64,000 nt of DNA, from NCBI GenBank assembly GCA_031254335.1, contig JAIRUP010000012.1, positions 1 to 64,000 on the forward strand. The letters are read 5' to 3'. Shown here piece by piece: positions 6,692 through 59,470 of the stretch. The stretch comes from Rickettsiales bacterium (GTDB lineage Bacteria; Pseudomonadota; Alphaproteobacteria; Rs-D84). Positions within the stretch are counted from its first letter, which is position 1; each line of letters starts with the position of its first letter. Made by a program: the position numbers and the translations under genes. Below the pieces are notes generated by a model. The model worked only from the letters and a program-made list of their open reading frames with translations, had not been told where the DNA came from and made no database searches.

Positions 6692-6770
6692 TCCCCCCAA
6701 CTCCCCCCTTGCGGGGGGGGGGGGGGAGTCGTCGCGCCGGCGCGAAGCGCAGGCGGACGGTGGGGGGTTG
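6692..6770. repeat. palindromic repeat R3 with a G14 tract
   Basis: The element starts AACTCCCCCCTTGC and has an uninterrupted run of 14 G at 6713-6726, then GCGCCGGCGCG and GGTGGGGGGTTGAG. It separates convergent genes. In related copies (14932, 15372, 25347, 51286) the G run at this position is only five long, so this copy seems to have expanded. Confidence 0.75.
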
Positions 6771-9379: not shown

Positions 9380-9671
9380 TGTCCCCCCGGGACGCCGGGG
9401 GTCTCATCATAAAGTTCCCCTCCCTCCGCCGTCATTCCAGCGAAAGCTGGAATCCAGGTCATAAAGCCCGCCTCCGGCGGGTGTCATTCCGGGCAACCGC
9501 GCCGAAGGCGGGGCGACCCGGGACCTCATCATTATTGCTTGCCGCCCGAAGCCTTGGCGAAGGGGGTGGTCATGGTCGGGCTGACTAGGGCCATCCAGGT
9601 AATAAGAAGTCGCCGCTTCCGCGGCGACTTCTTAATTGTCATTCCCCGGCTTGACCGGGGAATCTCGGCAA
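9380..9671. repeat. composite cluster of palindromic repeats, no gene
   Basis: This 300-bp gene-free stretch is a mosaic of small palindromes. It includes CCCCGGGACGCCGGGG, GTCATTCCAGCGAAAGCTGG, GCCCGCCTCCGGCGGG, an R1 copy at about 9570-9633 with its AGTCGCCGC/GCGGCGACT hairpin, and an R2 copy at 9637-9671 (GTCATTCCCCGGCTTGACCG and its inverted arm). The elements abut as if they had inserted next to or into each other. Confidence 0.8.
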
Positions 9672-15371: not shown

Positions 15372-15431
15372 TTAACTCCCCCCTTGCGGGGGAGTCTGCG
15401 CCTCCGGCGCAGGTGGGGGGGGGTCAAGAGA
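15372..15431. repeat. palindromic repeat R3 with G9 next to a start codon
   Basis: It has the same layout as the copy at 14932: AACTCCCCCCTTGCGGGGGA, TGCGCCTCCGGCGCA, then G9 at 15415-15423 and TCAAGAGAG. The following gene starts at 15434, so the repeat end forms its leader. Confidence 0.8.
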
Positions 15432-18237: not shown

Positions 18238-19150
18238 CCTTGTCTATCTGTGGGTGGACGGAAGCGACTTGAAATGGCAAGCCCGAAAAAATAATTGTCA
18301 TGCCCGGCTTGACCGGGCATCTCATCAATCAAGCTCCGCGACCTCCGCGAATCGCTGGCGCGACAATGACGAGCTGAAATATTCCCTGCGCTCGGTGGAA
18401 AAATTCGCGCCCTGGATTAATCATATATATATAATCACGGACAATCAGAAACCGGCCTGGCTTGCGAAGAACCCGAAAATCACAATCGTCGACCACAAGC
18501 AAATCATAAATAAAAAGTTCCTTCCGACATTCAATTCGGTCGCCATCGAATCGAGCATATATAAGATTCCGAACCTGTCCGAGCATTTCCTTTACGCCAA
18601 CGACGATATGTTTTTCGGCAGACCCGTCAAGCCCGATTTCTTCTTTGATAAGAATGGCAATCCGATAGTGATTGTGAAGCGGCGCAAATTCCCGCGCCGC
18701 GAACCGCGAAGCTATTGGCGCAAAACCCAATGGAACGCGGGGCGTTTGGTGCAGGCTGTGTTTGGATTGCGGTATAATGTCGGCTTCGCGCACAGTATAG
18801 AGCCTATGCGGAAATCCTATATGGATGATACTGCGTCGGTCGTGCTTGTGGGCTCGAATACATCGCGTTTCCGAAGCATGGACGATGTGCAAAGGATTAT
18901 TTTTCCATTGATCGATAATGCTATGGGTCGGAACACGCTTAAATTGCAGCGGCGCGGCGGCTTTTGGAAATGGATTTTGGGCAAAGCCGAATACGACAAT
19001 TACGACAAGCGGTGGAATGTCTACAATATTGTCCTGAAAAAGAGACCGGCGACATTCTCGCTTAACGATGTCGGGAAGGGCGAATCGGATAAAAAATTCC
19101 TTGAAAAATTATTTCCTAAGAAGAGCGTGTATGAGAAAGATTGTCGCTGA
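18224..19150 (+). CDS. Stealth-type sugar-phosphate transferase with in-frame repeat
   Basis: The 308-residue protein has the Stealth conserved regions: IDLVYLWVDGSD at the N-terminus, then RWRDNDELKYSLRSVEKFAP with HIYIITDNQKP, and LPTFNSVAIESSIYKIP with FLYANDDMFF. Stealth proteins are hexose-1-phosphate transferases that build phosphate-linked capsule or exopolysaccharide. Residues about 24-36 are encoded by an R2 palindrome (18295-18332) that splits the first two conserved regions without breaking the frame. Both ends overlap neighbouring genes. Confidence 0.85.
   Translation: MKKIDLVYLWVDGSDLKWQARKNNCHARLDRASHQSSSATSANRWRDNDELKYSLRSVEKFAPWINHIYIITDNQKPAWLAKNPKITIVDHKQIINKKFLPTFNSVAIESSIYKIPNLSEHFLYANDDMFFGRPVKPDFFFDKNGNPIVIVKRRKFPRREPRSYWRKTQWNAGRLVQAVFGLRYNVGFAHSIEPMRKSYMDDTASVVLVGSNTSRFRSMDDVQRIIFPLIDNAMGRNTLKLQRRGGFWKWILGKAEYDNYDKRWNVYNIVLKKRPATFSLNDVGKGESDKKFLEKLFPKKSVYEKDCR
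18295..18332. repeat. R2 repeat inside the Stealth-like gene
   Basis: TTGTCATGCCCGGCTTGACC and its inverted arm CGGGCAT, followed by CTCATCAATCAA, lie within the coding frame. The intergenic copy at 20932 shares the same CTCATCAATCAA tail. Confidence 0.85.
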
Positions 19151-20012
19151 AATCATCGCCGCATTCGTCCCGGGAAAGGTCGCGCGCAGCCGCGTGCGCG
19201 GGCTTGTGAATTTCGGAATTATCCGCGCGCTGGTTCTGCGCCGCCAAATGCGGCGGGACAAGACCCGCCCGAAATATTATCTCGCGGTCGCCGCGATTGC
19301 GAAGAACGAGGGCGAATATTTCAAGGAATGGCTGGAATGGCACAGGAAGCTCGGTGTGGAAAAGTTTTATATATACGACAACGAATCGACCGACAATACG
19401 AAAAAAGTTTTGGCCCCCTATATAAAATCCGGCTTGGTGGATTATATATTTGTCCCGGGCAGATTGAAGCAAATCCTGTCATATAACGATTGCCTGGCGC
19501 GGCATCGGACGGATGCGCGCTGGATTGCGTTCATAGACTTGGACGAATTCATCGTGCCGCTTAAAGACAAGACGATTCCAAAATTCCTGGAACGGTTCCA
19601 TGATTTCGCATTGGTGGAAATAAATTGGTTGTGCTATGGCAGCGGCGGCGCGAAGAAAAAAACGGCGGGCGATGTTATGAAGCGGTTCCTCTGCCATGCC
19701 AAGCCTGACGCCGAAGTGAACCGCCATGTAAAGGCGCTCGTGAACCCGCGCATGGTGTCGTCGTTCGTCGGGACGCATGAAGCGGTGCGCCTTTCGGGCC
19801 GCGCCGCGGACTCGCACGGAAATATAACAAGGAAACAGCACCCTGACCGCGCGCCCTTGCACGATGTGATTCGCATAAACCATTACGCGGTTAAAAGCTG
19901 GGCGGAATTTTTGGCGAAGCGCGCGCGCGGCCGCGCGACCCGCTCGCTGACGAACAGGGGGCTGGAATACTTCGATAAATTCGATTTGAACGACATAAAG
20001 GAGAAGGCATGA
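19131..20012 (+). CDS. GT92-like glycosyltransferase
   Basis: The 293-residue protein starts at the ATG at 19131, chosen because its MRKIVAEIIAAF matches the start of the paralogue at 20009. It carries AAIAKNEGEYFKEWLEWH, VEKFYIYDNESTDNT and FIDLDEF (the DXD-type metal site), the hallmarks of GT92/DUF23-like transferases. The C-terminal part ends in HYAVKSWAEF. It is one of four paralogues in the window (20009, 53946, 58525) but lacks a G tract. It overlaps the Stealth-like gene by 20 bp. Cytoplasmic; substrate unknown. Confidence 0.8.
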   Translation: MRKIVAEIIAAFVPGKVARSRVRGLVNFGIIRALVLRRQMRRDKTRPKYYLAVAAIAKNEGEYFKEWLEWHRKLGVEKFYIYDNESTDNTKKVLAPYIKSGLVDYIFVPGRLKQILSYNDCLARHRTDARWIAFIDLDEFIVPLKDKTIPKFLERFHDFALVEINWLCYGSGGAKKKTAGDVMKRFLCHAKPDAEVNRHVKALVNPRMVSSFVGTHEAVRLSGRAADSHGNITRKQHPDRAPLHDVIRINHYAVKSWAEFLAKRARGRATRSLTNRGLEYFDKFDLNDIKEKA

Positions 20013-20929
20013 GGAAATTTTTCGCAAATATCATATCGGCTTTTTTCAAGGACGCGGGCAAGCGGCACAGGGTTCGGAATATCCTGTCTTTCGGGCTTGC
20101 GAATTATTGCGTCGCGAAAATCCGTTTCAACAGGACCGAGCGTAAGCTGAAATTCCGCCATAAGCTCGCGCTGTGCGCCATCGCCAAGAACGAGGGCGCG
20201 TATTTCAAGGAATGGCTCGAGTTCCATCACATGATGGGCGTGGAAAAGTTTTATATATACGACAACGAATCGACGGACAACACGCGGTCGGTGCTTACGC
20301 CTTACATGAAAACTGGCTTGGTGGAATATACATATTGGCCTGGCCAAAGGGTGCAGCTGCAAGCATATTGGGACTGTATCAGGAAGCATAAATACGATAC
20401 GAAGTGGCTGACGATTATAGACTTGGACGAATTCCTTGTGCCGGTTCGGGACAGGACGATTCCCGAATATCTGGACGGCCTGCCGGAGAACACTTCGCAG
20501 GTTTTGGTCGGCTGGGCGATGTATGGTTCAAGCGGTCATGACAAAAAGCCCGAAGGCCTGGTTATCGAAAACTTCAAGACGCGCGCGGCCGAGAATAATT
20601 TCAAGCTACCCGGCCCGGCGCATAAAAGCATAGTGAATCCGCGCATGGTTATTGCGACCAGCTGCCACGACCAGGGAACATTGGGCGGCGGAACGGTGGT
20701 GCGGGAGTGCGACGGCAGAATATCGGACTGGAAAATCCGCTGCAACCATTACCATTGCAAATCGTGGGAGGAATACGCGCGGCGCGCGCCAAGGGGAACG
20801 GGCAGGGGCGGCGTGGCGCACGGCGCGAAGAAATACACTCGTGAATTTTTCGATAATTGCGACCATAACGAGGTCAAGGACCCGCTCATGGACCAATATA
20901 TCCCGCTCCTCAAAAAACGCCTTTCCTAA
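20009..20929 (+). CDS. GT92-like glycosyltransferase (intact paralogue)
   Basis: The 306-residue protein has the full family layout: CAIAKNEGAYFKEWLEFHH, KFYIYDNESTDNT, IIDLDEFLVP, then TIPEYLDGLP, VLVGWAMYGSSGHDKKPEGL and the C-terminal HYHCKSWEEY. It overlaps the preceding gene as ATGA. It is the best intact reference for the two disrupted paralogues at 53946 and 58525: where they have poly-G it has a normal VRDRT linker. Confidence 0.85.
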   Translation: MRKFFANIISAFFKDAGKRHRVRNILSFGLANYCVAKIRFNRTERKLKFRHKLALCAIAKNEGAYFKEWLEFHHMMGVEKFYIYDNESTDNTRSVLTPYMKTGLVEYTYWPGQRVQLQAYWDCIRKHKYDTKWLTIIDLDEFLVPVRDRTIPEYLDGLPENTSQVLVGWAMYGSSGHDKKPEGLVIENFKTRAAENNFKLPGPAHKSIVNPRMVIATSCHDQGTLGGGTVVRECDGRISDWKIRCNHYHCKSWEEYARRAPRGTGRGGVAHGAKKYTREFFDNCDHNEVKDPLMDQYIPLLKKRLS

Positions 20930-53895: not shown

Positions 53896-53932
53896 TGTCA
53901 TGGTCGGGCTTGACCCGACCATCCAGGTAATA
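53896..53932. repeat. R1 repeat that supplies a -35 box
   Basis: TGTCATGGTCGGGCTTGACC and its arm GACCATCCAGG lie upstream of the glycosyltransferase gene. Its TTGACC is placed as a -35 box for the TATACT downstream. Confidence 0.75.
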
Positions 53933-53939
53933 TTATACT
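53910..53939 (+). promoter_or_regulatory. promoter of the GT92-like gene at 53946, predicted leaderless
   Basis: TTGACC (53910-53915, inside R1) and TATACT (53934-53939) are 18 bp apart. Six bases separate the -10 box from the ATG at 53946. Confidence 0.6.
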
Positions 53940-53945
53940 CATGAT

Positions 53946-54849
53946 ATGAATAAATTATTAATCAAAATCGCAAGCCGCTTCACGCATTCCAGGCGCGTCC
54001 TGGGCCTTCTTGAATTCGGCTTAATCAATGCGCTCAAAACGAAACTGCGCGAGCCGAAACTTGAATTCCCGCATAAGCTTTCCATCCTTGCCATCGCCAA
54101 AAACGAGGGGCCGTATTTCAGGGAATGGATTGAGTTCCACAAAATGATGGGCGTGGAAAAATTCTATATTTATGACAACGAATCGACGGACGATACCAAA
54201 GAAATCCTCGCGCCATATATAAAATCCGGTTTGGTGGAATATACATGGTGGCCCGGAATCAAACAGCAGACCAAGGCCTATAAGGACGCGATTGCCAAAT
54301 ATAAATTCGATACCCAGTGGCTTGCGATTATAGACTTGGACGAGTTCCTTGTGCCGGCTGGGGGGGGGGTATTGCAGAGTTTCGGACTGGCTGGACTCGC
54401 TGCCGCGGTCCGCCAAGCAAGTCCTTGTCGGATGGACTATGTATGGCTCTAACGGCCATGATAAAAAGCCCGAAGGCCTTGTTATAGAAAATTTCAAGAC
54501 CCGCGCGGCGGAAAATAATTTCAAGCTTCCCGGCGAAATGCACAAAAGCATTGTGAAGCCGCGCTTCGTCCTTGCGCCCAAACCGCACCGCCAGATAATT
54601 TTCGGCGGCGGGGGCCTTGCGTTTTATCACGGCCCGATTTCGGGCTGGCCGCTGCGCTGCAACCATTATCATTGCAAGTCGTGGGAGGAATATCAGAAAA
54701 GGATGGCGCGCGGTTCCGGCGTGTGCGGCATGGGGCAGGGCGGCGTCCCGAAATACAACAGGGAATTCTTCGAGAACTGCGACCATAACGATGTCCTTGA
54801 CCCGATTATGGACGAATACATCCCGCCCCTTAAAAAACGCCTGACTTGA
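53946..54849 (+). CDS. GT92-like glycosyltransferase, out of frame at a G10 tract
   Basis: The first frame codes for 168 residues with AIAKNEGPYFREWIEFHK, FYIYDNESTDDT and IIDLDEFLVP, then runs into poly-G at 54360-54369 and ends at 54452. The +1-shifted frame from there to 54849 gives the rest (WLDSLP, KQVLVGWTMYGSNGHDKKP, HYHCKSWEEY). With nine or twelve G instead of ten the whole gene reads as one protein of about 300 residues, matching the 306-residue paralogue at 20009. In this copy the gene is therefore off, or made by slippage. A sequencing error in the homopolymer is the main alternative. Confidence 0.8.
54360..54369 (+). repeat. G10 tract, candidate phase switch
   Basis: Ten G followed by TATTG lie four codons after the DLDEF motif of the glycosyltransferase. 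Loss of one G restores the frame. Confidence 0.85.
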
Positions 54850-55964: not shown

Positions 55965-56040
55965 TGGTGGAGCCAATCGGATTCGAACCGACGACCTCTT
56001 CATTGCGAACGAAGCGCTCTACCAACTGAGCTATGACCCC
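55965..56040 (-). tRNA. tRNA-Ala (anticodon CGC)
   Basis: The 76-nt minus-strand gene pairs GGGGTCA with TGGCTCC, including the G3-U70 wobble that marks alanine tRNAs, and ends with an encoded CCA. The anticodon stem CTTCG/TGAAG encloses TTCGCAA, giving CGC. Confidence 0.95.
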
Positions 56041-57119: not shown

Positions 57120-58523
57120 ATGGCGAAAAAATACATAACCACACCTATTTATTATCCCAACGGCGCGCCGCATATCGGACACGCTTATACGACCGCGATG
57201 TGCGACATCCTGCGCCGCGCGTGGAAGCTGCGCGGTGACGAAGTCTTTTTCACCACCGGCACGGACGAGCACGGGCAGAAAATGCAGGAAGCCGCGAACG
57301 CCGCGGGCATGCCTTTCAAGGACTTCACCGACAGGCAGAGCGAGATTTTCCGCAAGCTTGCGGACGAATTGAACGCGACGCCTGATTTCTTCATCCGAAC
57401 CACGATGGACGAACATAAGAAGATAGTTCAGGAATGGCTGGAAGACGCGCGCGCGAAAAAAATTCTTGTGAAGAAAAAATACAAGGGCCTTTACTGCGTC
57501 GGGTGCGAGCAGTTCAAGAAGGAATCCGACCTGGACGCGCGCGGATTCTGCGCCGACCATCAGAAAGCCCCGGTCGTGATGGAGGAAGAAAATTACCTGC
57601 TTCCATTGGAGCCGCACCGCGAATGGCTGGTCGGATATATAAATGAAAATCCCGGATGGATTCAGCCCGAAAGCTATCGCGCGGAAGTCTTGAACATGCT
57701 GTCCGAGCCGCTTGACGACCTGTCGATTTCGCGCCCGAAAAAACGCGTGTCGGCGGGCATAGAATTTCCTTTCGACCCGGACCAGGTCGTTTATGTATGG
57801 TATGACGCGCTGATAAACTATATATCGTCGCTGCGCATAAACAAGTTCGACGAATTTTGGTCGGGTTCGACCCACATGATTGCGAAGGACATATTGAAGG
57901 CGCATTGCATCTATTGGCCCATCATGCTGCGAAGCTTCGGACTGCCGCCCGCGCACAGGACGCTTGTCCACGGATACTTCAACGGCGAAGGCGGAATAAA
58001 AATGTCGAAAAGTTTGGGCAATGTAATAGAGCCGTTCAAAGTCATAAACGAAATCGGCGCGGACGCGCTGCGCTTTTACTTCGCGCATAACGCGGCCATA
58101 TCGAGGGACTCGGTCATATCCGAGGATTTGATAAGGAAGGAATACGGCGTGCTTGCGAACAATTTCGGAAACCTTTATCTGCGGACATTCAAGATGATTG
58201 AGAAATACGCGCCCGGCATGGAATTGTCGGCAAAGACCGCGGCGCCGAAAATAGAAAACTTGTCCGATATAAAAACATTGGCGGAAGAAATTCTGAACAA
58301 AAGTTCCGAGCTGAACCTTTATATAGATAAAACGCAGCCCTGGTCGCTTGCGAAAGACGAGGCGAAGCGCGGCGAGCTTTTGGAAGTTCTGAAAACATTG
58401 GGCGACGGCGTTTTGGAATTGGCTTGGGCCGTCGCCCCGATTATGCCCGGAACTTCGGAAAAAATAATCGAATCGTTCAAGACGGGGCAATCCGTCGTCC
58501 TGTTCCCGAAACTGGATGATTGA
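57120..58523 (+). CDS. metG: methionyl-tRNA synthetase
   Basis: The 467-residue class I synthetase has YYPNGAPHIGHAYTT with the HIGH motif, GTDEHGQKMQE, a zinc knuckle starting YCVGCE, and IKMSKSLGNVI. It lacks the C-terminal tRNA-binding domain of longer MetRS forms. Its last bases overlap the possible first codons of the next gene. Confidence 0.95.
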   Translation: MAKKYITTPIYYPNGAPHIGHAYTTAMCDILRRAWKLRGDEVFFTTGTDEHGQKMQEAANAAGMPFKDFTDRQSEIFRKLADELNATPDFFIRTTMDEHKKIVQEWLEDARAKKILVKKKYKGLYCVGCEQFKKESDLDARGFCADHQKAPVVMEEENYLLPLEPHREWLVGYINENPGWIQPESYRAEVLNMLSEPLDDLSISRPKKRVSAGIEFPFDPDQVVYVWYDALINYISSLRINKFDEFWSGSTHMIAKDILKAHCIYWPIMLRSFGLPPAHRTLVHGYFNGEGGIKMSKSLGNVIEPFKVINEIGADALRFYFAHNAAISRDSVISEDLIRKEYGVLANNFGNLYLRTFKMIEKYAPGMELSAKTAAPKIENLSDIKTLAEEILNKSSELNLYIDKTQPWSLAKDEAKRGELLEVLKTLGDGVLELAWAVAPIMPGTSEKIIESFKTGQSVVLFPKLDD

Positions 58524-58524
58524 A

Positions 58525-59470
58525 ATGCGAAAGCTCAAATTAAAAGCGAAGAAACTTCTCATAAATATAATCGCGGGTTTTGTTCCGGGCAGGATAGACC
58601 GGGACAGGTTCAGAAACGCCATGGGGTTCGGTCTTGTGAAATCCATCCGTGCGCGGCTCGCGGAATCGAAGCTGGAATTTCCGCACAAACTTTCCATAGT
58701 CGCCATCGCCAAGAACGAGGGCGAGTATTTCCGCGAATGGATTGAATACCACAACATGGTCGGCGTGGAAAAGTTTTATATCTATGACAACGAATCGACC
58801 GATAATACGAAGGAAGTTTTGGAGCCTTACATAAAATCCGGCCTTGTGGAATATACATATTGGCCGGGCGAAAAGCAGCAGCACCATGTCTATCGTGATT
58901 GTTTGGCGAAGCGGAAGTTCGATACGAAGTGGCTCGCGCTAATCGATTTGGACGAGTTTCTTGTTGTGAACGGGGGGGGGGTATTGCCGGGTTCCGGAAT
59001 ATTTGGACGCGCTGCCCAAAGGCGTGTCGCAAGTATTGGCTGGCTGGGTCATGTATGGTTCCAATGGGCATGACAAAAAGCCCGAAGGCCTTGTCATCGA
59101 AAATTTCAAGACCCGCGCGGCGGAAAACAATTTCGCCCTTCCGGGCGATATGTATAAAAGCATAGTGAAGCCCCTGTTTATGTGCGACGCCCGGTGCCAC
59201 AGGCAGAAAATGTTCGCCGGTTCCGAAGTCATGGAATATTTTGGGCCGATTGCCGGCTGGGGATTGCGCTGCAACCATTACCATTGCAAATCGTGGGAGG
59301 AATATTCGAAGAAAGCCCCGCGCGGCGCGGCATACGGCGGATTGGAAAGGGGCCGGTCGAAATACACGCGCGAATTCTTCGACAACTGCGACCATAACGA
59401 TGTCTGCGACCCGATTATGGATAAATATATCGAACCATTGAAGAAAAGACTAGCCGATTGTAAGGATTAG
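58525..59470 (+). CDS. GT92-like glycosyltransferase, out of frame at a G10 tract
   Basis: The start at ATG 58525 gives MRKLKLKAKKLLINIIAGF, like its paralogues. The first frame has AIAKNEGEYFREWIEYHN, FYIYDNESTDNT and LIDLDEF, then meets G10 at 58972-58981 and stops at 59073 (182 residues). The +1 frame continues with VPEYLDALPKGVSQVLAGW and HYHCKSWEEY to 59470. With nine or twelve G the gene would code for about 314 residues. It overlaps the convergent xth gene by 21 bp. Phase-off state or homopolymer error are the two readings. Confidence 0.8.
58972..58981 (+). repeat. G10 tract, candidate phase switch
   Basis: Ten G followed by TATTG just after the DLDEF motif, as in the gene at 53946. 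Loss of one G restores the frame. Confidence 0.85.

Follow-up and report, generated by a model that had tools for sequence, protein, structure and literature searches.

The window analysed here, the first 64,000 nucleotides of contig JAIRUP010000012.1 (assembly GCA_031254335.1), belongs to a small-genome alphaproteobacterium of the Rickettsiales whose relatives come from animal guts. At 53946-54849 it carries a gene of glycosyltransferase family 92 (GT92), inside which a run of ten Gs occupies exactly positions 54360-54369. The features of this gene, of a second split copy and of two intact paralogues are as follows:

53910-53939, + strand: sigma-70-like promoter TTGACC-18-TATACT, putative (consensus scan only, 10/12 matches), 6 bp before the start codon
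53946-54359, + strand: GT92 upstream half, 138 aa, containing DLDEF as its DxD motif; Pfam Glyco_transf_92, PF01697, E=1.1e-24
54360-54369, + strand: G10 tract, whose length modulo 3 sets the frame (10 is broken, multiples of 3 are open)
54370-54849, + strand: GT92 downstream half, 159 aa, YCRVSDW...HYHCKSWEEY; 66% identity to the 20009 gene, dN/dS 0.18-0.31
54450-54452, + strand: stop codon met in the G10 state, giving a truncated 168-aa product
58516-58971, + strand: second copy, upstream half; PF01697, E=9.4e-26
58972-58981, + strand: second copy, G10 tract at the same codon position and with the same TATTGC flank; the orthologue in the sister species G002 has G9 in frame
58982-59470, + strand: second copy, downstream half, from frame analysis; dN/dS 0.14-0.21
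20009-20929, + strand: intact GT92 paralogue without a tract; its G002 orthologue likewise has none
19068-20012, + strand: another intact GT92 paralogue, in tandem, likewise lacking a tract

A GT92 gene divided by a G10 tract

Read from the ATG at 53946, the frame is open up to the tract for 138 aa, the last residues being DLDEFLVPA. Beyond the ten Gs this frame meets the stop at 54450-54452, and the resulting 168-aa product extends 30 residues past residue 138 and ends without the C-terminal HYHCKSWEEY part. The frame that follows the tract, whose first letters are YCRVSDWLDSLP, stays open until 54849, a length of 159 aa. It lies one base apart from the upstream frame, and the two are joined only at tract lengths divisible by three. 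Frame analysis thereby bears out the original prediction of an intact reading frame on either side of the tract with a one-base offset. The claimed alignment of both halves with the complete paralogue at 20009-20929 (306 aa; PF01697, E=1.7e-31) holds as well, the upstream half being 63% identical to paralogue residues 19-151 and the downstream half 66% identical to residues 151-305. The second copy, 58516-59470, is interrupted at that codon position too and is flanked by metG on one side and an exonuclease III-like gene on the other, neighbours named from their translations alone. Neither copy has another stop or frameshift.

The promoter of the 53946 gene is probably the TTGACC-18-TATACT sequence listed above, which itself contains no tract. 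A role of the coding tracts as hidden internal promoters is not supported: no -35 element occurs consistently at them, and a product of the second half by itself would be without the DxD half. An Rfam search at the locus returned a tRNA at 55968-56040 and no other non-coding RNA.

Profile and fold comparisons place both split genes in GT92, with a predicted GT-A fold. The model of the G9 orthologue from G002 (gene C28; overall pLDDT 76) finds its best PDB match by fold in the galactan synthase GalS1 (8d3t, E=1.1e-13, TM 0.60), which is also the closest solved structure in a profile search (E=2.7e-8). GalS1 is a plant GT92 enzyme, and differs from the present protein to the extent that only 14% of residues are identical. 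Both aspartates of the DxD motif are invariant in the GT92 alignment. The tract-encoded glycines lie in a loop (residues 142-153 of the model, with low confidence there) that links the strand following the DxD motif to the helix after it. Because paralogues vary at this place, with loops of 5, 7 or 12 residues, the loop would be expected to tolerate changes in length.

The tract in a sister species and selection beyond it

G002 is a genome of the same genus, and one assembly per species was compared. It contains six GT92 genes. The tandem orthologues of the 19068 and 20009 genes (82% and 81% identity) lack a tract in both species. The orthologue of the 58516 copy, C28, carries an in-gene G9 followed by TATTGC, which is read in frame as SN-GGG-YC with no stop, and C11 carries a G8 at the equivalent place, also in frame. 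Two further genes have promoter tracts: G11 in C19, and G9 in C7b. The latter occupies the slot after dnaK that is held here by the 53946 gene, so that the positional counterpart of this gene has a promoter G9 in place of the coding tract. In the tree, the three genes with coding tracts (53946, 58516 and C28) form one clade with a support of 90/84; 58516 and C28 are the closest pair (99/94), and C7b is the sister of the three. Synonymous sites between the species are nearly saturated, yet the coding tract is still present, its length differing between G10 in the 58516 copy and an in-frame G9 in C28. From this pairwise comparison and the tree, we conclude that the coding tract was retained through speciation, at a length of 9 (open) versus 10 (broken). 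The original prediction had named a G10 fixed in every strain as the outcome that would speak against it; across the two species the length is G10 versus G9.

The in-frame G9 also bears on recoding, in which RNA polymerase or the ribosome slips on the G run, so that G10 DNA, itself never switched, still yields a share of full-length enzyme. Transcriptional slippage can arise at homopolymers of at least 8 bases, and either recoding or phase variation may lie behind a predicted frame break (PMC3711429). However, the cases described occur mainly on A or T runs (PMC3711429), and the G9 orthologue is in frame without slippage, and therefore no conserved shift site is seen. We consider recoding very improbable.

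The downstream half is no less constrained than intact members of the family. Its dN/dS is 0.18 between the 53946 and 58516 copies, 0.25 between 53946 and C28 and 0.14 between 58516 and C28, with an overall range of 0.14-0.31; upstream halves and intact genes fall in the same range (0.07 to 0.32). Judged by these ratios, the sequence past the tract is under purifying selection, and because they resemble those of intact genes, the 53946 and 58516 genes are not old pseudogenes. They might still be recent ones, each inactivated once by a G insertion with decay to follow: both split copies are broken here, and a further GT92 copy (C12:30354-30716) is truncated. Against this stand the lack of a second stop or frameshift in either copy, the low dN/dS past the tract, the breakage of two separate copies at the same tract and the presence of that tract in an intact orthologue of another species. 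Recent pseudogenes are accordingly a most unlikely explanation, and the comparative evidence favours a contingency gene over a pseudogene.

Tracts are also concentrated at this gene family. A tract lies within the gene or at most 150 bp upstream at 3/5 GT92 loci of the present genome; when 40 tracts were placed at random, at least three GT92 loci were struck in 19/5000 trials. In G002, with 21 tracts genome-wide, four of the six GT92 genes have one (probability ~1e-5, a hand estimate). A G14 promoter tract upstream of the truncated GT92 copy (C12:30784) belongs to a family of such tracts with matching flanks, Gn-TAGACTGC...TAGGAAAAT, together with G11 (G002 C19) and G12 (G002 C34); the length difference between homologues of the two genomes is at most 3.

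Long G runs across the genome and the order

Runs of G or C were counted over 678 kb of the 750-kb, 14-contig genome, 72 kb of contig 6 being left out. There are 163 runs of length 6, 11 of 7, 11 of 8, 17 of 9 and 12 of 10 to 14; runs of at least 9 thus number 29, where base composition would predict about 3.5. As the counts fall to a trough at length 7 and then rise at 9, the long runs form a separate class. Genomes rich in poly-G are found repeatedly within the genus, the family and the order, whereas most of the Alphaproteobacteria sampled from elsewhere have few such runs relative to genome size. Missing mismatch repair was ruled out as the source of long tracts: MutS is present with an intact frame of 822 aa, and this test gives no sign of a mismatch-repair mutator. 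An excess of tracts near contig ends (7/40 within 600 bp), considered as a sign of mixed lengths, was dropped because at least two of the contigs concerned (C5 and C10) end in repeated gene sequence.

The right flank TATTGC recurs at long G runs of unrelated genes (5/40 long runs, at 54360, 58972, C10:9460, C5:22416 and C12:9806; also in L106, L102 and L065), and at none of ~3160 runs that are 4 to 8 bases long. TA comes after long G runs far more frequently than in a reversed control in several genomes of the order. Slippage alone does not explain the peak at 9 and the frequent TA after tracts.

All four broken coding tracts with a TATTGC flank are exactly 10 long and each would be opened by 9, a coincidence with a chance of about 4% if phases were random; a technical or biological bias shared by the four is possible. 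A technical one would be a homopolymer length error of library or assembly, the cells having G9 and the gene being always intact. The uniform ten of these tracts fits such an error, as does the sharp peak at 9 in the lengths of the genome's long runs, where no other length is as frequent. On the other hand, the same assembly yields tracts of 8, 9, 10, 12, 13 and 14, homologous promoter tracts lie up to 3 apart between genomes, and a consistent gain of one base is an unusual direction for PCR or sequencing error in G runs. Length error is thus an unlikely source of the G10.

Several intergenic runs, among them 6713-6726 (G14) and 15415-15423 (G9), belong to a dispersed palindromic element, AACTCCCCC...GCGGGGGAGT, which is found elsewhere in the genome and, in G010 (L090), within the reading frame of an Ffh-like gene. 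As a source of tracts this element holds for several intergenic ones, but the GT92 tracts are without its flanks.

A distinct class of promoters has the form TTGACAAAA-N5-G9-TAnnnT, with a spacer of mostly 15 or 18 and nearly always exactly nine Gs. It numbers 21 in G001 (L118-L137), 46 in G048 (L138-L157) and 12 in G050, with further genomes also having it, and 0 in the reversed control. The genes downstream are mostly of unknown family, but dapB (in a congener) and an RpiB-like gene are among them; since the class includes dapB, not every G9 in the lineage is a contingency locus. A putative promoter of cas9 contains G9 at C9:264-272 in the present genome and G8 in G002 (L101:2048-2055), with a total spacer of 16 in both. 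One speculative reading, which we would put forward with considerable reserve, is that an order-wide G9-TA element (mostly a promoter, TTGACA-N6/9-G9-TAnnnT, sometimes in-gene) is kept by a common process or factor, such that dozens of genes per genome, cas9 included, would be switchable or jointly tunable and the GT92 tract would be one outlet.

Proposed phase variation and known systems

On the basis of the tract and its homologues, we propose that the 53946 gene is likely to be a translational contingency locus, most likely a GT92 glycosyltransferase gene subject to phase variation, which the present assembly would show switched off. Slipped-strand mispairing during replication would add or remove one G in the tract. 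With 9 or 12 Gs, the full predicted enzyme of ~300 aa would be made, in which a short loop of glycines follows the DxD motif; at 10 Gs, the 168-aa fragment would end right after the metal-binding motif, lack the rest of the enzyme and presumably be inactive. The product may act on a surface glycan. A tract in excess of chance, a clean one-base break, an in-frame G9 orthologue, purifying selection and enrichment in the family all speak for the switch that had been predicted from the sequence, although as a whole the prediction is only partly supported.

Other split genes of the genome follow the same frame logic, as open and broken paralogues coexist. Paralogous proteins of secreted type share a tract of ten Cs that leaves the frame open in C3 and breaks it in C5 and C10. 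In a methyltransferase gene (C8:27510) the break lies close to the start, and the gene of a 1650-aa Cys-rich protein (C8:7463) is open. The secreted-type family (C10, C5, C3 and C11; C10:8925-10014, C5:22073-22901) contains in-gene C/G tracts in both states, and several of its members end in a conserved RWVGADGTYSGFRYGVDAGVGVALG stretch.

Simple-repeat phase variation has been studied mainly in mucosal pathogens. If real, the switch described here would belong to an uncultured lineage related to gut metagenome-assembled genomes (MAGs), with a 0.75 Mb genome and a density of long G tracts at least that of Neisseria, and would point to selection for surface variation in such communities by host, phage or competitors. 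A literature search returned nothing on phase variation in termite-gut Alphaproteobacteria, on poly-G glycosyltransferases of the gut or on phase-variable GT92, and for slipped-strand mispairing in Rickettsiales a general review only. The kind of mechanism is known; this order-level lineage and the GT92 family appear not to have been reported for it in the searchable literature.

A parallel within GT92 comes from a Selenomonadaceae MAG (L068), in which one of three tandem GT92 genes is split by G8 at 9583-9590 and the other two are intact without a tract. As here, the frame is broken in the same loop (DEFIFPKSV-G8-IITDVV), but the phylum is another one, identity is ~37% and the flanks differ; the split is probably independent in origin. 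Because G tracts strike the same catalytic loop of GT92 in two phyla, this loop seems to tolerate added glycines, and tracts of either 9 or 12 Gs might then give an active enzyme. The MAG genome has about 40 such tracts, and an oxidoreductase-like gene in it is split by G11 (L068:2398-2408).

In porA of N. meningitidis the tract lies in the promoter spacer (PMC7864442). Related GT92 genes of the present genome and of G002 resemble this arrangement, in that a -10-like element, TAGnCT, follows immediately on a tract of G9 to G14, whereas the 53946 gene has a coding tract. This coding tract has counterparts in the pgl pilin glycosylation and LOS genes of Neisseria, where poly-G likewise lies within a glycosyltransferase gene and a one-base change shifts the frame, although enzyme family and bacterial class are different and the switching proposed here is a prediction from assemblies. 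Neisseria LOS genes have tracts of 9 to 15, and the pathogens of the genus have a modal genome-wide poly-G length of 9, with roughly 15 to 18 tracts in each genome (PMC5953494). Cj1295 of Campylobacter jejuni, as outlined in PMC3068675, is a further G-tract controlled gene of surface sugar modification, from an unrelated lineage.
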